Assembly (NCBI RefSeq): GCF_014359955.1
Contig: NZ_JACIYL010000150.1
Span: 1 to 7,441 of the forward strand
DNA length: 7,441 bases
Direction: 5' to 3'
From: Thermogutta sp.
Lineage (GTDB): Bacteria > Planctomycetota > Planctomycetia > Pirellulales > Thermoguttaceae
Below, in pieces: positions 310 to 5,401 of this stretch. Positions within the stretch are counted from its first letter, which is position 1, and each line of letters starts with the position of its first letter. The notes under the pieces were generated by a model. The model did not search any database, was not told where the DNA came from, and was given only the letters and a program-made list of their open reading frames with translations. The translations under genes were made by a program, and so were the position numbers.

Positions 310-338
310 TGCGAACGTCCACAGTAATTTGCCTCAGC

Positions 339-363
339 CGGAGGGACCTCCTTGTCAGGTCCG
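339..363 (+). repeat. Solo left-type REP-like hairpin (cluster A)
   Basis: CGGAGG foot followed by stem GGACCT / AGGTCC (344-349 / 357-362). The innermost pair is broken (C350 opposite C356), leaving the apex CCTTGTC. This is a left-type hairpin without its own right partner, directly upstream of a complete element. The same solo-left-then-element order occurs in cluster B (3343-3368). Confidence 0.75.
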
Positions 364-366
364 CTC

Positions 367-451
367 TCGGAGGGACGTGCTTGTCACGTCTGCCATCTAC
401 CGTTCGATCCATCTATTTCCTTTCACGGGCACAACAAGCGTGCCCCTCCGA
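367..451 (+). repeat. 85-bp bipartite hairpin element, copy A1
   Basis: The left hairpin (367-392) has the TCGGAGG foot, stem GGACGTG / CACGTCT (one G-T pair) and loop CTTGT. A 33-nt spacer (393-425) follows. The inverted right hairpin (426-451) has stem GGGCACA / CGTGCCC (one mismatch, A433 opposite C439), loop ACAAG and the mirrored foot CCTCCGA. The element therefore begins TCGGAGG and ends CCTCCGA, giving terminal inverted repeats. It is followed by six A-rich bases and then the next left hairpin. Confidence 0.8.
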
Positions 452-457
452 AAAAAC

Positions 458-484
458 TCCGGAGGAACCTGCTTGTCAGGTCCG
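458..484 (+). repeat. Left hairpin of element A2 (right half missing)
   Basis: TCCGGAGG foot, stem GAACCTG / CAGGTCC (A466 opposite C482 mismatched), loop CTTGT. It is separated from the previous right hairpin by AAAAAC, matching the six-base A-rich junction in cluster B (3546-3551). A 33-nt spacer-like stretch (485-517) follows, but the expected right hairpin at about 518-543 is absent and the palindrome at 527-556 occupies that place. Confidence 0.75.
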
Positions 485-526
485 CTTGTCAACCTTGGAT
501 GATCCACCCCAATTCACTCGCGTTCT

Positions 527-556
527 GGTAGGGGCAATTCATGAATTGCCCCTACC
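527..556 (+). repeat. Perfect 30-bp palindrome with GTAG foot (family P, copy 1)
   Basis: Each arm is 15 bases, the left one reading GGTAGGGGCAATTCA, and the right is its exact reverse complement with no loop. The GTAG at the outer base of a GC-rich palindrome is the tetranucleotide typical of REP sequences. Diverged copies lie at 699-720 and 5212-5234, so this is a dispersed family and not a local operator. The perfect symmetry suggests a recent copy or selection on structure. Confidence 0.8.
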
Positions 557-562
557 GCATAT

Positions 563-572
563 GGAGGGACCT
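563..572 (+). repeat. Truncated left-hairpin foot
   Basis: GGAGGGACCT matches the foot and half-stem of a left-type hairpin and stops abruptly, abutting the complete element that begins at 574. It looks like a remnant interrupted by, or deleted during, insertion of the neighbouring copy. Confidence 0.5.
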
Positions 573-573
573 T

Positions 574-657
574 TCGGAGGGACCCGCTTGTCGGGTCCGA
601 TGCACACCGATTGATGACCCATCCCCCTCACCGGGCACGACAAGCGTGCCCCTCCGA
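574..657 (+). repeat. 84-bp bipartite hairpin element, copy A3
   Basis: The left hairpin (574-599) has stem GGACCCG / CGGGTCC with all seven pairs intact and loop CTTGT. A 32-nt spacer (600-631) contains CCGATTGATGACCCAT. The right hairpin (632-657) has stem GGGCACG / CGTGCCC, loop ACAAG and ends CCTCCGA. This copy is nearly the same as copy B1 at 3372-3456, including most of the spacer, so these two are probably close relatives. Confidence 0.82.
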
Positions 658-698
658 ACGACGTTTCCCATCTCGTGGCACAACCAGGGTCCCCGGCA

Positions 699-720
699 GG
701 GGCTATTCATGGATGGCCCC
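699..720 (+). repeat. Family P palindrome, copy 2
   Basis: Eleven-base arms (GGGGCTATTCA pairing with TGGATGGCCCC) form a fully paired inverted repeat with two G-T pairs and no loop. It differs from copy 1 at several positions but keeps the fold. The G-T pairs mean it folds better as this single strand than as its complement. The outer GTAG has become GCAG (696-699 region). Confidence 0.7.
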
Positions 721-924
721 GACACCACGTTGCGCTCGTGGCCTGTCACAGCTTGTGGCCAAAATGGGGATGACTTGGCATTTGTCGGGGGCGATGCATC
801 GGCGATTTGTGGCCGGCGGACATGGACGGGGGCTGGCAGTTTTAAAGACCAGCGATTAGCTTAAAAATAAGGCTCAAGCGAGCCGACGGGGGGAGTTTTT
901 GTTTCATTTTCCGGGAGGATCTTT
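721..924 (+). other. Upstream region of the carboxykinase gene
   Basis: This non-coding stretch follows cluster A. It contains a 10-bp palindrome CGATGCATCG (792-801), an AT-rich island at about 840-870 in an otherwise GC-rich region (the likeliest promoter location, but without a convincing -35/-10 pair), and a good ribosome binding site GGGAGGA (913-919) five to six bases before the ATG at 925. Peptides readable across it in several frames show no gene-like features. Confidence 0.5.
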
Positions 925-2502
925 ATGTTTGAAGAATTCTTGCAGGCAGCGCGTACCATTTTCGAGCAGGCGCAGCAGGAAGGAAGGCTGATCCGCAATC
1001 CCGATACAGCGCGACTCCGCGCGATGGCTCTCGAAGAACCCGAGGTCCGCGAAACCCGCTACGGCAGCCTGGAGGTGGACTCGGAGCCGACATCGCGGGC
1101 CGCGATGTTCACCAAGAACAATGTCGACACGAAGTTCGGCAAAGACGAGTACGAGCTTCTCGAGGCGGCCAAGCGCCGGCTGGCCCAGCAGGAACTGGTG
1201 AGCATCGATGTGCAGGTCGGCGACGGTACGGAAGGAATTACCGCCAGACTCATCGTTCCCCGAAGGTATGCCCACGTAGCCTACGCAGGGCTCAAGCTAT
1301 TCAAGCCCACCAGCACGGACGATCCCACTTACCAGGTCATCATGTTTACGGACGAGGCCTTCGAGACCAATAAACACAAAAAACTCCCGGAAAAAGACAT
1401 CACCATTCGCCTCGCCCACTCCCCCGATGGACGGATGGTGAAGATCGTCAGGAACAGCAATTATTTCGGCGAGTGGAAAAAAGGCGTTTTCGCCGGTGAG
1501 GACTGGCGGGTAAAGCAAAAAGGCAACGCGATCTTTTTGCACGTGGGATGCCGGCGGGACACCCTGGAAACACCCCACGGCGGATATCGCACCGTCTGCT
1601 CCCTGTTCGCCGCCCTCAGCGCCAACGGCAAGACGAGCACCACCTGCAAAGTGCTGGCACGAAAAGGTCGGGAACGGTCCTGGCTCATCCAGGATGATGG
1701 GGGCGCCCTGTATCGCGATGGCTCATTCCGCGGGTTCGAGCCCGGGGGAATTTTCATCAAAACGGATGGCCTGAACCCTGGCGATCAACTTGAGGCCTAT
1801 TATGCGTGCCTCAAACGGGAGACATTCCTGGAAAACGTGTGGATCGAACCCGACGGGACGATTGACTTTTTCAATATGGAGCGGACGTCCAACGGCCGGG
1901 CGGTGGTGGAGCGCCGCGATTTTATGCACGCTGCGCAGACCATCAACGCGGATCGTGTCGATAACCTGTTCCTCATCACCCGGGGAAGTACCATTCCCGC
2001 GGTTGCCAAATTAACTCAAGAGGAGGCCGCCGCGTTCATGGTGCTGGGACAGTCCATGGAATCCTCGGCCGGTGACCCCACTCAGGCGGGCAAGATCAAA
2101 AACGTGTTCTTTTACGATCCTTTTGTGGCGGGTAACCGCGCGGAGCACGCCAACCTGTTTTACGATATCCTCAAGGAAAATCCGCACATCCAGTGCTACC
2201 TTCTGAACACCGGCTTCGTTGGAGAGGGGGAATCGATGCGCGACATCCGCCTTCAGGACACGATGGGCATTCTGGACTCCATCCTTCGCGGCGGTCTGGA
2301 TGAGTGGGTCTATTCCCCCCGGACCAAACTCCATGTGCCCACTGCGGTCCGCCTGGTTGATTCCATCCTTTTCCATCCGGAGAAACTCTTCCCGCACGAT
2401 GTTTTTGAAGAAAAACAGGCGGCCCTGGAAAAGCATCGAGCGGAATTTATGGACCGCTTTCCCGGACTACGACCCGAAATCCGACGCGTCTTCCAGCGAT
2501 AA
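925..2502 (+). CDS. pckA: Phosphoenolpyruvate carboxykinase, ATP-type family (divergent)
   Basis: Cytoplasmic enzyme expected to convert oxaloacetate plus ATP to phosphoenolpyruvate, CO2 and ADP for gluconeogenesis, or the reverse as anaplerosis. At 525 residues it is close to the usual ~530-540. Family landmarks, aligned by eye to the E. coli enzyme: YFGEWKKG (180-187; Tyr180 and Lys186 equivalent to Tyr207 and Lys213), His206 (His232), a P-loop-like SANGKTS (232-238; Lys236-Thr237 equivalent to Lys254-Thr255), IQDD (Asp257-Asp258, kinase-2), LENVWIEPDGTIDF (302-315), Arg325 (Arg333 position) and the late LLNTGF motif (426-431). The P-loop departs from the usual GLSGTGKTT, and the RSPKDKY motif near residue 65 is replaced by TKFGKDEY, so the substrate-binding Arg65 is not evident. 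The start has GGGAGGA 5-6 bases upstream. Family membership is firm; the exact reaction is less so. Confidence 0.8.
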   Translation: MFEEFLQAARTIFEQAQQEGRLIRNPDTARLRAMALEEPEVRETRYGSLEVDSEPTSRAAMFTKNNVDTKFGKDEYELLEAAKRRLAQQELVSIDVQVGDGTEGITARLIVPRRYAHVAYAGLKLFKPTSTDDPTYQVIMFTDEAFETNKHKKLPEKDITIRLAHSPDGRMVKIVRNSNYFGEWKKGVFAGEDWRVKQKGNAIFLHVGCRRDTLETPHGGYRTVCSLFAALSANGKTSTTCKVLARKGRERSWLIQDDGGALYRDGSFRGFEPGGIFIKTDGLNPGDQLEAYYACLKRETFLENVWIEPDGTIDFFNMERTSNGRAVVERRDFMHAAQTINADRVDNLFLITRGSTIPAVAKLTQEEAAAFMVLGQSMESSAGDPTQAGKIKNVFFYDPFVAGNRAEHANLFYDILKENPHIQCYLLNTGFVGEGESMRDIRLQDTMGILDSILRGGLDEWVYSPRTKLHVPTAVRLVDSILFHPEKLFPHDVFEEKQAALEKHRAEFMDRFPGLRPEIRRVFQR

Positions 2503-2535
2503 GGCGCATGTCCCCGTGCGGGAAAAAACCGCAAG

Positions 2536-2576
2536 ACCCCGACCTGCGGGTTCCTTGGGCGGAATGCAGTCGGGGT
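2536..2576 (+). repeat. 8-bp perfect inverted repeat after the carboxykinase gene
   Basis: ACCCCGAC (2536-2543) pairs exactly with GTCGGGGT (2569-2576) across a 25-nt loop. An overlapping alternative stem, CCGCA (2529-2533) with TGCGG (2545-2549), would compete with it. It lies 34 bases past the stop codon, so it could stabilise the 3' end or slow polymerase. It has no T-run and is not a standard intrinsic terminator. Confidence 0.45.
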
Positions 2577-2610
2577 GATCGGTCGGAGAGAACCCGATCC
2601 TGGAGTTTAT

Positions 2611-2645
2611 TCGAGCGTTTTTGCTCGAGGGGGACGCGTTCCCCC
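2611..2645 (+). repeat. Two abutting small hairpins
   Basis: TCGAGC-GTTTTT-GCTCGA (2611-2628) is immediately followed by GGGGGA-CGCGT-TCCCCC (2629-2645). Both are perfect 6-bp stems with 5-6 nt loops and no spacer between them. They are seen directly; a role as part of the transcript-end structure between converging genes is inference. Confidence 0.55.
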
Positions 2646-2751
2646 GTGTCCATTCGAGGAACGGCTTTCGCCTTCTGGAGGGACGGCGGCCATGCCGTCC
2701 CTTACGGTTTTTGCGTCGTCGGTTAAAGCGGCGCGTCCCACCGTGTCCGTT
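2617..2751 (+). repeat. Imperfect direct duplication
   Basis: GTTTTTGC followed by a CGCGT-CC-CCGTGTCC-TT core occurs at 2617-2654 and again at 2707-2751. The 20-base cores at 2635-2654 and 2732-2751 agree at 17 positions and start 97 bases apart. The GGAG hairpin at 2677-2702 lies between them. This could be an old tandem duplication or flanking copies left by an insertion. Confidence 0.5.
2677..2702 (+). repeat. REP-like hairpin with GGAG foot (third family); possible weak terminator
   Basis: GGAG foot then AGGGACGGC (2679-2687) pairing perfectly with GCCGTCCCT (2694-2702) around GGCCAT. The foot and first stem bases match the cluster A/B hairpins, but the rest of the stem and the loop differ. 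TACGG and five Ts (2708-2712) follow, so transcripts entering from the left could be terminated weakly. The REP-like reading is favoured because of the foot. Confidence 0.55.
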
Positions 2752-2828
2752 GGCCTGGGTGGAACCGGGCCTCCATCCATCGCGACCTGGAAGACGCGAA
2801 TCCGACGGTCTGTCACGCGGGAACGTGT

Positions 2829-3068
2829 TCAGGCGGATGGTCGGCGGTAATACTGGTAGGCCAGGAGGACCTCGTAAAGATCCAGGGAGATCGTGATTTC
2901 TTCCTGTTCGAAATCTTTCAGCCAGGTCCGCTGGCAGCGAACGGCATCCACCAGAAGGGGCAGAATTTCGCCCAGCCGCACGTTCACCAGGGAAGAGATG
3001 TTGTTTTGTTGGGCCGGAGCCTCGTCTTCCTGAGGGCCGTAGTAAACGCGGAGATGTGTGCGTGGCAT
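2829..3068 (-). CDS. Conserved-looking small hypothetical protein (79 aa)
   Basis: I do not recognise a named family. The ATG at 3068 is preferred to an upstream in-frame TTG at 3128: it has GGAG about ten bases upstream, and the extra 20 residues of the longer form look random. The product starts MPRTHLRVYY, has a short acidic, Gln-rich, probably flexible segment (about 12-25), and then a compact region: VNVRLGEILPLLVDAV (28-43), RTWLKDFEQEEITIS (47-61) and LYEVLLAYQYYRRPSA (64-79). There is no signal peptide or membrane span, and no nucleotide-binding or metal motif. The ordered hydrophobic spacing and charged turns argue for a real, mostly helical cytoplasmic protein. It resembles a small protein I associate with planctomycete genomes; this is unverified. 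It is transcribed alone, converging on the carboxykinase gene and diverging from the metallopeptidase gene. Confidence 0.68.
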   Translation of the reverse strand: MPRTHLRVYYGPQEDEAPAQQNNISSLVNVRLGEILPLLVDAVRCQRTWLKDFEQEEITISLDLYEVLLAYQYYRRPSA

Positions 3069-3236
3069 AGGGGCTTTTCTCCGGATCGACTCCAAAAAAG
3101 GCACCTGCCAGCGTTCCCGCCGGCGCAACCCTCTGTGTCCCCCCTGGGCGTCAAGATTATCGGCGTTCCGATTCTGTGGCTTTGATCAAATTCGCGGGAT
3201 TTGCGGTTTTCTTCGAAAAGACTGCCAGAAACGACT
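3069..3236. other. Upstream region of the small minus-strand gene
   Basis: Non-coding. On the minus strand it contains GATAAT (plus 3156-3161), a possible -10 box for the gene starting at 3068, but the nearest -35-like TTGATC (3184-3189) is 22 bases away, too far for a standard promoter. A TTTGATCAAA palindrome (3181-3190) and a small TTTTC-TTC-GAAAA hairpin (3207-3219) are present. Confidence 0.35.
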
Positions 3237-3270
3237 GCGCTGACGCCTCCCCCTTTCCTCTGGCGGTGGG
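3237..3270 (+). repeat. Left boundary module of repeat cluster B
   Basis: Counterpart of 274-309: GCGCTGAC, TCCCC, TTTCCTCTGGCG and TGGG in the same order, with a two-base length difference and four or so substitutions. Its last bases overlap the 3266-3287 hairpin, which cluster A lacks. Confidence 0.6.
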
Positions 3271-3287
3271 GAGGCCGACCTCCCCAC
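3266..3287 (+). repeat. Perfect 9-bp hairpin with CCGA tetraloop
   Basis: GTGGGGAGG (3266-3274) and CCTCCCCAC (3279-3287) pair completely around CCGA. It is GC-rich and stable on either strand. It has a GGAG within the stem and may be yet another REP-like type, but only one copy is visible in this window. Confidence 0.6.
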
Positions 3288-3342
3288 AACGTCGCGGGGC
3301 GGCGAGATTCAACCCGGCGGCACCTCTTTCGCGGAGCCTACT

Positions 3343-3368
3343 TCGGAGGGACCTGCCTGTCAGGTCCA
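3343..3368 (+). repeat. Solo left-type REP-like hairpin (cluster B)
   Basis: TCGGAGG foot, perfect stem GGACCTG / CAGGTCC (3349-3355 / 3361-3367), loop CCTGT. It begins 29 bases before the next left hairpin, as the solo copy in cluster A begins 28 bases before its neighbour. Tandem left-left spacing is therefore preserved between the clusters. Confidence 0.78.
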
Positions 3369-3371
3369 TAT

Positions 3372-3456
3372 TCGGAGGGACCCGCTTGTCGGGTCCGATG
3401 AACGCCGATTGATGACCCATGCCGCTTCGCCGGGCACGACAGGCGTGCCCCTCCGA
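3372..3456 (+). repeat. 85-bp bipartite hairpin element, copy B1
   Basis: The left hairpin (3372-3397) has perfect stem GGACCCG / CGGGTCC and loop CTTGT. The spacer (3398-3430, 33 nt) contains CCGATTGATGACCCAT, shared with copy A3. The right hairpin (3431-3456) has perfect stem GGGCACG / CGTGCCC, loop ACAGG, and ends CCTCCGA. Four bases (CACA) separate it from the next element. Confidence 0.83.
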
Positions 3457-3460
3457 CACA

Positions 3461-3545
3461 TCGGAGGGACGTGGTTGTCACGTCCGCTCGTCAGGATCGG
3501 ACGATCGGTCGCGTTTCTGCGGGCACGACAAGCGTGCCCCTCCGA
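3461..3545 (+). repeat. 85-bp bipartite hairpin element, copy B2
   Basis: The left hairpin (3461-3486) has perfect stem GGACGTG / CACGTCC and loop GTTGT. The 33-nt spacer (3487-3519) is largely unlike those of the other copies. The right hairpin (3520-3545) has perfect stem GGGCACG / CGTGCCC and loop ACAAG, ending CCTCCGA. Six bases (AAAAAT) lead into the next left hairpin. Confidence 0.83.
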
Positions 3546-3551
3546 AAAAAT

Positions 3552-3628
3552 TCCGGCGGGACGTGCCTGTCAGGTCCGCTTTGCAACACCACACATGCAT
3601 CACGTTTCACCGGGCACGACGGACAAGC
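3552..3628 (+). repeat. Bipartite hairpin element, copy B3, truncated at the right
   Basis: The left hairpin (3552-3578) has a modified foot (TCCGGCGG) and stem GGACGTG / CAGGTCC with one G-G mismatch. The 32-nt spacer (3579-3610) keeps the standard length. The right hairpin is broken: CGGGCACGAC (3611-3620) is followed by GGACAAGC instead of completing the loop and second arm. This is the decayed right end of cluster B. Confidence 0.65.
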
Positions 3629-3639
3629 AAAATTGGTCT

Positions 3640-3667
3640 TTGCGGATTTTGCCCGGCGTGCTAGATT
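3640..3667 (+). promoter_or_regulatory. Candidate promoter for the metallopeptidase gene
   Basis: TTGCGG (3640-3645) and TAGATT (3662-3667) are separated by 16 bases, in the first unique sequence after cluster B. TAGATT matches the -10 consensus at four of six positions. This would give a leader of about 130 nt before the ATG at 3807. The prediction is weak and based on spacing only. Confidence 0.28.
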
Positions 3668-3806
3668 GGGCGGGACGCGCTGGTTTACTGCGGCAGAAAC
3701 TGGCAGAAATGGTGGGATGCTCATGCCCGTCGGATGACAGCCCCTATTTGCCCGGTCTTCTGCCGTATGCGGAAATGGATTTCCTTCAAAAGGAGAGCCG
3801 TGGAGC

Positions 3807-5015
3807 ATGGAAGCTCGACTGTCCCGTCTTGCGTGCGTCCTTCTCGTCGTTGCGACCGCGGCGGGGGCGTCCTATCCCACCCCGAATTTCATCATCCAGT
3901 GCCAGGACCCCCAGCTTGCGCGTGAGCTGGGTGAAGCGGCAGAAAAATATCGGAAAGAGCTGGCGCAATTGTGGCTGGGGCACACGCTGCCCGATTGGTC
4001 TCGCCCGTGCCCGGTAACCGTTCACGTGGGACCGAACCTTGGAGCCGGGGGGGCGACGACGTTCGTTTTCGATCGGGGAGAGGTGTATGGCTGGAAAATG
4101 ACGATCCAGGGGCCCCGGGAACGTCTGCTTGATTCCGTGCTTCCTCACGAGATCACCCATATGATCCTGGCCAGCCACTTCCGGCAGCCTCTGCCCCGAT
4201 GGGCAGACGAGGGAGCCGCCACCACGGTGGAGCACATCAGCGAGAGGGAAAAGCATCGTCGCATGCTCCTCGAATTTCTCCGCACCCGGCGGGGAATTCC
4301 CTTCCGTCACATGTTCGCCATGGAAGAATACCCCCAGGACATCATGCCGCTCTACGCCCAGGGATACACCCTCGCCGAGTTCCTCATCCAGCAGGGCGGC
4401 CATCGTAAGTTCATTCAGTTCCTGGAAGACGGTCTGAAGGACAACAATTGGGATGCCGCCCTGGCGAGACATTATCCCTACCAGGACCTGGGCCGACTCC
4501 AGTTAAGCTGGGTGGACTGGGTTGCCCGGGGGTTCCCTCAGCTTTCTCCGGCATCTGTTCCGTCGGCACCGGAGGCCACACTCGTGGCGGCGAACATCGG
4601 CGGTTCCACCTCCGAATGGCGGGCGAAAGGCTCATCGCCTGCGGTTGTGCCTTCCCTCTACCAGCAACTGGCAGCCTCCCCGCTCGAAGTGGGGGCATCC
4701 GTGGCGGAATCTTCGCCCGGTGCGGGACAACCGGCCGCTGGTGCGCTGGTGAATGCGCCCCAGTACGATCCAGCGAATCCCCCTCTTGTCGACGTGTCCG
4801 GTTGGCGCCCCTCTCCGGTGTCTTCGCCGCTCGCCGCTCAGGCTCTCCCCTCCACCGCGGGGCAGCAATCCCAGGGCTGTGGATGCGGCGCGACGCCCGC
4901 CGAACTTGAGAACTCCAAGCCTGTTATCCCTAATGAAGTGGTGGGCTATCCCCAGACGGCGGAGGGCCGACCGAACGTCCTGATGGAATGGAACAGTCCC
5001 ACCATGTGGCGATGA
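3807..5015 (+). CDS. Secreted zinc metallopeptidase-like protein (HExxH...E, peptidase-MA type) with low-complexity tail
   Basis: Predicted exported hydrolase. The ATG at 3807 has AGGAG 11 bases upstream. Residues 1-21 look like a cleavable signal peptide (Arg5/Arg7, hydrophobic LACVLLVVATAAG, Ala-x-Ala-like end). The zinc site is HEITH (114-118: His114, Glu115, His118), with PRWADEGAA (130-138) supplying the probable third ligand Glu135. This close HExxH...E arrangement matches the gluzincin/peptidase-MA superfamily. A folded domain seems to run to about residue 243 (conserved-looking YAQGYTLAEFLIQQGG at 183-198, LSWVDWV at 233-239). Residues ~245-402 are Pro/Ala/Ser/Gly-rich and probably disordered, with a GCGCG cluster (Cys358, Cys360) near the end. 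No C-terminal anchor is apparent. Substrate is unknown. It stands alone: cluster B lies upstream and 466 non-coding bases follow. Confidence 0.75.
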   Translation: MEARLSRLACVLLVVATAAGASYPTPNFIIQCQDPQLARELGEAAEKYRKELAQLWLGHTLPDWSRPCPVTVHVGPNLGAGGATTFVFDRGEVYGWKMTIQGPRERLLDSVLPHEITHMILASHFRQPLPRWADEGAATTVEHISEREKHRRMLLEFLRTRRGIPFRHMFAMEEYPQDIMPLYAQGYTLAEFLIQQGGHRKFIQFLEDGLKDNNWDAALARHYPYQDLGRLQLSWVDWVARGFPQLSPASVPSAPEATLVAANIGGSTSEWRAKGSSPAVVPSLYQQLAASPLEVGASVAESSPGAGQPAAGALVNAPQYDPANPPLVDVSGWRPSPVSSPLAAQALPSTAGQQSQGCGCGATPAELENSKPVIPNEVVGYPQTAEGRPNVLMEWNSPTMWR

Positions 5016-5401
5016 AGGTATTCGGAAACGCCGGGTTTCTGCAACGGCTTCCAGCGGATCCAATTTCGCGGCGCAAGAAACGCGCCTCGGGGATTGCTGA
5101 AATGGGCTGCTATCCGCGGCGGGACTTCCGGCAACAGGCGGTGGACCAGCGCGACAATGACGAGCGGACCAGTCAGGCATCGGTCGGGCCGGCTCGCGAA
5201 TCACCCCTGCAGTAGGGGCCGTTCATGAATCGCCACAGCAATACCGAAGTGGGGACGGGGCAACCGGGCTCCCTATTGAAAGAACCCACCGCATCTGGCA
5301 CACTTAAATTTTTGCCCTCCCCGTTTGTCGCCCTCATGACCGCGCCAGGTGCGGGACTGGTGGTCTGGTCGTTTGGGGGAAGACTGTGGGGCATCAGCCA
5401 T
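5016..5401. other. Intergenic region between metallopeptidase and ribosomal operon
   Basis: No convincing gene. Short open frames here lack gene-like composition, and the long minus-strand frame that crosses it is the antisense of rpsP and trmD. Visible structures are a small GAAAC/GTTTC stem (5025-5039) just after the peptidase stop, a GGCGC/GCGCC stem at about 5072-5088, and the decayed family P palindrome at 5212-5234. No clear terminator for the peptidase gene is present. Confidence 0.5.
5212..5234 (+). repeat. Family P palindrome, copy 3 (decayed)
   Basis: GTAGGGGCCGTTCA (5212-5225) then TGAATCGCC (5226-5234). The GTAG foot, the GGGGC start and the TTCATGAAT centre of copy 1 are preserved. 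The fold tolerates one G-T pair and one C-C mismatch, and the right-hand CCCTAC end is lost. It is the only family P copy outside the large hairpin clusters. Confidence 0.6.

Follow-up and report, generated by a model that had tools for sequence, protein, structure and literature searches.

What kind of repeat forms the two hairpin clusters found in a short contig of Thermogutta sp., and by what process did it come to stand there in arrays? The 7,441-nt stretch analysed (hereafter the window) is contig C176 (NZ_JACIYL010000150.1) of a metagenome-assembled genome (MAG) of 4.64 Mb in 1117 contigs, 96% complete, which we call the own genome (G000). A first-pass annotation of the window had described a modular element of about 85 bp made of two hairpins in inverted orientation. 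With a probability of roughly 0.7, we propose that this 85-bp unit is a REPIN-type repeat, that is, an inverted pair of repetitive extragenic palindromic (REP) hairpins, that it lies in mosaic arrays and that it is likely copied in trans by a transposase of the RAYT family. Three other genomes of the genus (G086, G087 and G088) were used for comparison. The complete one, G088 (4,810,751 bp), is very likely Thermogutta terrifontis, and the window genome very likely belongs to another Thermogutta species.

The unit is a REP doublet in which a left hairpin (L) is followed by a spacer of about 33 nt and by an inverted, differing right hairpin (R), with GGAG tags on the outside. L consists of a 7-bp stem closed by the loop CTTGT, with GGAG ahead of the foot; R is related to L, but it is inverted and its stem differs. 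The motif found at the hairpin foot is GGAGGGAC (51 of 54 and 145 of 168 units), and not the GTAG that is typical of the REP superfamily. Four full units of the window (A1, A3, B1 and B2) and the linkers AAAAAC, AAAAAT and CACA were recovered exactly as first described, and B3 is indeed truncated, the cut lying within its right hairpin. The ends TCGGAGG and CCTCCGA are correct for the window; elsewhere, the two bases before GGAGG vary (TC, CC, TT, AT and others), so that the core shared by all units is GGAGG..CCTCC. A2, which was said to lack its right half, has no R, but this description is incomplete because a GTAG-tagged palindrome (F) stands in its place. Hybrids of this L-spacer-F type with a related spacer were found at six other loci of the DNA fetched from both genomes, and the G088 ortholog of A2 is one as well. 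The original inventory of units overlooked two intact L's, one at the start of each array. L stubs like the one preceding A3 also precede other units.

The mean pairwise identity of 172 unique 85-mers is 0.85 in L, 0.57 in the spacer and 0.93 in R. The spacer sequence does vary, as had been noted, but not freely, since most copies lie, by eye, near one of two consensus families. Among 221 units of both genomes, the two variable pairs of the L stem are Watson-Crick in 206 and 191 cases, while 138 and 112 are expected from column composition; these counts include paralogs of shared descent and are to be taken as support and not as a probability. At the orthologous locus L033, a C-G pair in the L stem of one species is replaced by T-A in that of the other (in this comparison of orthologous units, some rows of low identity are probably paralogs matched via shared repeats). 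R is nearly invariant across the 221 units. CT lies close to the left border of 26/54 and 66/168 units; no cleavage-site rule is claimed from these counts, which have no chance control.

In order to count the element, we searched for the pattern TCGGAGGGAC-N30..80-GTGCCCCTCCGA. The own genome has 39 matches, 29 forward and 10 reverse, and the reversed control has none; 31 copies are 85 bp long, 5 are 86 bp, and the others are 84, 83 and 88 bp, the last including an N run. Across 119 family genomes, the exact pattern was detected only in the own genome (39) and in G088 (61), and in none of the other 117, G086 and G087 included. A looser pattern gave 154 copies in G088 (85 forward, 69 reverse; control 1), of which two split patterns listed 153; removal of two double counts left 151. 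Single hairpins were scanned with a position-weight matrix (PWM) trained on own-genome units, at a threshold of 14, in three sets: the element-bearing stretches of the own genome, window included (set 1, 192 kb, 197 hairpins, against 0 in one shuffled control), 20 G088 samples of 20 kb each, taken at even spacing (set 2, 103 hairpins), and 40 chosen G088 stretches (set 3, 708 kb, 569 hairpins).

These scans show a one-way grammar. A gap of exactly 33 nt separates L from a following R (neighbours up to 120 nt apart) in 45/54, 14/25 and 114/157 cases in sets 1, 2 and 3. Linkers are mainly 3–9 nt from R to L and 3–7 nt from L to L, and R-to-R neighbours within 120 nt number 0, 0 and 4. The usual order is L-(L-33-R)-L or L-33-R-L, and a single polarity is kept in 41/43, 27/27 and 129/131 multi-hairpin arrays (197/201 in total). 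After merging at 1 kb, 33 of 109 G088 clusters contain more than one doublet, and orientation is mixed in 0/33. Random spacing together with random relative orientation, the outcome that would have contradicted the first-pass annotation, was looked for beyond the window and not found; the constant arrangement seen in the window extends to the own-genome and G088 stretches scanned (33-nt gap in 128/182 of the latter). The proposed geometric constraint, with hairpins held about three helical turns apart, is not supported. Measured between GGAGG and CCTCC inclusive, related units in other phyla (see below) span 57, 61 or 74 nt and those of the present family 81 nt, and these differences are not multiples of a helical turn. 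G088 itself has units with L-R gaps of 32 to 40 nt. The constant unit length inside one genus is explained by common descent.

The fetched G088 DNA contains 61 pairs of doublets that lie more than 1 kb apart and whose spacers differ by at most 2 bases. Comparison of their 20-nt flanks shows that 36 pairs share neither flank, 21 share one and 4 share both. Near-identical doublets with unlike flanks indicate that the doublet spreads as a unit with its own borders, from GGAGG to CCTCC. Such a unit could in principle be a miniature inverted-repeat transposable element (MITE), mobilised by a DDE transposon that has terminal inverted repeats and generates target duplications; the inverted ends TCGGAGG/CCTCCGA, and the fact that the linkers on both sides of a unit in one array can be alike, are in keeping with this. 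We nevertheless hold it to be highly improbable, given that the first two bases of the ends vary, that each end is itself a hairpin and that no constant flanking duplication was seen by eye among the dispersed pairs listed. Moreover, related copies flank a RAYT gene at locus L134, and no search was aimed at DDE transposases with these ends. The element had been likened both to a bacterial interspersed mosaic element (BIME) and to a MITE: the inverted REPs and a mobile unit with inverted hairpin ends are borne out, and a strictly defined MITE is unsupported.

The connection with RAYT transposases comes from G088 and from other lineages. PF01797 is present in 81 of the 119 family genomes, and G088 has one RAYT above the NF047646 cut-off (83.8 bits vs 80) in addition to one weaker split match. 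The G088 RAYT (gene at C1:896562–896966, in locus L145, C1:895955–897114) is flanked by GGAGTGCGG hairpin pairs, which form a second GGAG-tagged family represented there by GGAGTGCGGCGATTYATCGCCGC and inverted GGAGTGCGGGGCTTTAGCCCCGC, three each. Its left hairpin was found 27 times in the own genome, 91 times in G088 and 0 times in G086 and G087; both GGAG families are thus present in G000 and G088 and absent, by pattern, from G086 and G087. They are also interlaced. In G088, 51 of the 91 second-family left hairpins lie within 500 nt of the 151 doublets, all 51 with the same polarity, where circular shifts give a mean of 2.2 (maximum 11) and local jitter a mean of 5.1 (maximum 13). Two composite sites of both families were read in the G088 sequence. 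The palindrome F takes part in the mosaics as well: F is followed by L within 80 nt at 56 places, with a gap of 3 or 4 nt in 33. Because the GGAG tag is common to the 85-bp family and to the hairpins at the G088 RAYT, that RAYT is the natural candidate enzyme. As a separate observation on these transposases, RAYT-like genes whose match to NF047646 falls into two pieces, with a GTAGGGGC palindrome between them, occur in G088 (C1:3676418–3676786, L181) and in G087 (C325, L182), and a further RAYT-like gene of G087 (C85, L178) has repeated GTAGAACAAGTCTATAGACTTGTTCTAC-type palindromes on its flanks.

Beyond the genus, the exact 24-nt R hairpin gave 0 matches in wider genome contigs, a scan from which near genomes are possibly hidden. 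The degenerate hairpin GGAGGGRCNNGCTTGTCNNGYCC was therefore used for kin, and it matched at least 39 stretches; among the matches listed, 29 come from Kiritimatiellae, Lentisphaerae, Victivallales, Spartobacteria or other Verrucomicrobia MAGs, 7 from uncultured bacterium entries and 3 from others. Still among the matches listed, 7 of 38 unique kin hairpins with enough context have an inverted GGAGG hairpin with a perfect stem within 100 nt (imperfect partners, as at L137 and L140, were left out); two of these doublets are 57 nt long, one is 61 nt and four are 74 nt. At locus L134, in a Verrucomicrobia MAG, a RAYT frame (1010–1453) that passes NF047646 (81.6 bits, cut-off 80) has doublets with this hairpin core on either side. 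PF01797 was matched in 10 of 12 genomes reached through kin loci, and GGAGG or GTAGG hairpins of this kind were observed at 5 of 65 Y1-bearing loci (L148, L156, L158, L164 and L166), L156 being the L134 locus again. At L164, Kiritimatiellae doublets GGAGGGACGCAATTCATTGCGTCC (1412–1479 and 1787–1854) lie within a long open frame that is similar to the L134 RAYT in its C-terminal part.

The anatomy of the unit, its copy number, its own borders, the covariation in L, the one-way grammar, the sites shared by the two species and the co-location of the two GGAG families are directly supported. On this basis, we propose that a RAYT-family transposase would copy the doublet in trans, in single-stranded form, and that the GGAG at each hairpin foot would serve as its guide in place of GTAG. 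The putative enzyme would be the T. terrifontis RAYT that lies beside the interlaced second GGAG family. Insertion of doublets next to existing ones, together with unequal recombination, would enlarge the arrays, and their decay would leave solo L's and hybrids. A broader version is possible, although we regard it as doubtful: one GGAG-guided RAYT could drive several hairpin families that look unrelated, all at once, and build polarised mosaics of GGAGGGAC doublets, GGAGTGCGG hairpins and GTAG palindromes. In such a scheme, hairpins would land in a fixed orientation beside old ones, and sites would grow directionally, crowd one part of the chromosome and act as inversion junctions.

Several observations weigh against copying by a RAYT. 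Searches of the own genome detected neither PF01797 nor, with matches admitted up to E = 1, an NF047646 RAYT; a RAYT gene lying among high-copy repeats is easily lost from an assembly of 1117 contigs. None of the hairpins of the 85-bp family was found at the G088 RAYT locus, and the RAYT loci of two Verrucomicrobia MAGs with 74-nt doublets (L155 and L170) have flanking hairpins of the GTAG type instead. The tag of the present family, GGAG and not GTAG, is a further point against it. L and R loop variants do not covary either: the loops are exactly complementary in 103 of 221 units, for a shuffled mean of 109.6, and for this reason the long hairpin formed by the whole doublet in the REPIN model has no covariation support here. 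The covariation favours the single L hairpin; for the long hairpin it is either uninformative or unfavourable. Predicted folds of the single-stranded DNA give one long hairpin in three of four window units (z −1.86 for A1, which is weak, −4.43 and −2.12) and two hairpins under a common base for B2 (z −3.70). Kissing loops, or a long L-R hairpin as the selected structure, were considered and not retained: the consensus loops are complementary, but their variants do not covary.

Comparison of sites adds to these points. The 40 array sites of the own genome (merged at 700 nt) could be placed in the G088 stretches by both flanks in 18 cases, by one in 14 and by none in 8; 16 of the 18 two-flank sites are syntenic and 2 are not. 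All 16 syntenic sites are filled in G088, with the same polarity in 16/16, and a clean empty site was not found among them; most G088 stretches had been picked for holding elements, which inflates the share of occupied sites. Array A has too short a left flank to enter the 40-site count; it aligns to a G088 array. G086 and G087 were tried as empty sites for array A and set aside, the neighbouring gene being present and the DNA upstream of it not alignable to the window. Differences between orthologous arrays involve entire units, as seen at L032, L033 and L040.

Array B (window 3343–3628) belongs to the non-syntenic pair: in G088, the counterpart of its left flank lies at C1:120,256–121,715 in reverse orientation and that of its right flank at 182,102–183,494 in forward orientation. 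It is likely an inversion junction, produced by recombination between two opposed arrays that flipped about 62 kb, or else a misjoin in the MAG. These data bear on the possibility that the arrays are relics, which spread in an ancestor, lost their transposase and have since changed by unequal recombination, slippage and gene conversion without any transposition. The lack of a RAYT found in the own genome, the syntenic sites filled in both species, the whole-unit differences in copy number and the resemblance of array B to a recombination junction all suit such a history, and gene conversion between arrays could also place similar units between dissimilar flanks. The near-identical spacers at distant G088 loci without a shared flank (the 36 of 61 pairs above) are less easily accounted for by conversion alone, and we consider the relic scenario unlikely. 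Transposition and array recombination may both be at work.

We then examined the chromosomal context. In G088, 61 of the 109 array clusters fall in the first 960 kb (C1:1–960000), where 21.8 are expected; the densest circular 960-kb window has 64 clusters, and none of 2000 uniform simulations exceeded 45. Conversely, 1.95–2.85 Mb, a range chosen post hoc, has 1 cluster for 20.4 expected. The GC skew of 20 even G088 samples showed no clear origin or terminus on which a replication-strand bias could be judged. According to rough gene calls, 192 arrays are intergenic and 4 lie within open reading frames, and array polarity follows the gene direction in 64 of 98 tandem gaps. The regional clustering, the intergenic position and this polarity could point to a host device, in which transcribed hairpins or protein-binding DNA serve regulation, mRNA ends or chromosome organisation and mobility is secondary. 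The gap types argue otherwise: arrays occupy 98 tandem, 63 divergent and 31 convergent gaps, and all gaps above 150 nt in the same DNA are 220 tandem, 121 divergent and 48 convergent, so no gene-end role is visible. The pattern is also absent from two congeners (G086 and G087), and no Rfam family, hence no known structured RNA, scored above its gathering score in the window (0 matches). Taken together, a host device seems to us quite improbable, and copying by a RAYT is retained as the preferred explanation.

The features of the window are collected in Table 1. The gaps that contain the two clusters are 286–924 and 3129–3806, and the bordering gene calls are divergent in both. Outside the arrays, degenerate copies of F were noticed at 696–718 and 5212–5234, and a GGAG-footed hairpin with another stem and loop (GGAGGGACGGC..GCCGTCCC) at 2676–2703, between the phosphoenolpyruvate carboxykinase-like gene and the next call.

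Table 1. Hairpin units and genes of the window (+ and −, strand; a point, palindrome).
Feature	Position	Strand	Basis or remark
Solo L, opens array A	338..364	+	repeat family D1, PWM scan
A1, full L-spacer-R doublet	367..451 (85 nt)	+	exact pattern; orthologous unit in G088
A2, hybrid L-spacer-F, GTAG-tagged palindrome in place of R	458..556	+	
F, perfect palindrome GGTAGGGGCAATTCATGAATTGCCCCTACC, GTAG at both ends	527..556	.	inverted repeat I15
L stub (TGGAGGGACCTT) immediately before A3	560..573	+	sequence reading
A3, full L-spacer-R doublet	574..657 (84 nt)	+	exact pattern
Solo L, opens array B	3343..3369	+	repeat family, PWM scan
B1, full L-spacer-R doublet	3372..3456 (85 nt)	+	exact pattern
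B2, full L-spacer-R doublet	3461..3545 (85 nt)	+	exact pattern
B3, L, spacer and R ending after first arm and loop start	3552..3628	+	sequence
Left-hand gene call beside array A	1-285	−	without Pfam match
Phosphoenolpyruvate carboxykinase-like gene	925-2502		PF01293
Left-hand gene call beside array B	2829-3128	−	without Pfam match
Peptidase-MA match	3807-5015		under its curated cut-off
rpsP, trmD, rplS			further genes

How does the 85-bp family compare with known systems? In form and behaviour it is REPIN- and BIME-like, of the head-to-head heterodimer sort; the GGAG tag, the strong polarity and the mosaic make-up set it apart. As in the REPINs described in the text of Bertels & Rainey 2011 (PMC3116915), the common unit is an inverted hairpin pair whose ends are more conserved than its spacer, it is extragenic, present in high copy and clustered, the doublet is what spreads, and kin are linked to RAYTs. 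The differences from that account are the GGAG tag, an L that is not the same as R, a long hairpin without covariation, an own genome without a RAYT found and single hairpins, some of which are decayed (B3) while intact single L's in tandem are common. The GTAG-tagged heterodimers in the text of Di Nocera et al. 2013 (PMC3733652) share with our units the head-to-head arrangement with an outside tag and differing stems, conserved spacers, hybrids of two families, hosts of the Planctomycetes-Verrucomicrobia-Chlamydiae (PVC) group and REPtrons that are at times missing. GGAG is outside the degenerate tags named in that text (GYAG, GYRG, GTRG, GTMG and GTGG), from which the figures may differ. Tandem REP and inverted REP, and a tetranucleotide at the foot as the proposed guide, also characterise the E. 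coli BIME and TnpAREP as portrayed in the texts of PMC8266576 and PMC6006769; the strict one-polarity L-33-R and L-L grammar and the mosaic of two GGAG families with a GTAG palindrome are not part of that portrayal. The text of PMC8266576 states that changes of the foot tetranucleotide move the cut site of a Marinomonas RAYT as the guide model predicts, and that attempts in two other RAYT systems failed; PMC6006769 reports, in its text, a rare planctomycete class with a CnGA foot. GGAG as the start of a word is absent from the main texts of the REP papers cited here, a weak negative that leaves figures and inner matches outside the count. A literature search on Thermogutta together with repetitive extragenic palindromic repeats found no paper, and the 85-bp family looks undescribed in the literature searched.

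These results extend REP-doublet mobile DNA to a thermophilic planctomycete, with GGAG replacing GTAG, and show that in another PVC lineage this hairpin core lies next to a RAYT. T. terrifontis, which is cultured and has a complete genome with 154 copies, is well suited for tests of directed array growth, of guide tags and of array-borne inversions. Finally, the text of Di Nocera et al. (PMC3733652) offers "no obvious explanation" for REP doublets being so often heterodimers, and the fixed polarity of the 85-bp family sharpens this question.

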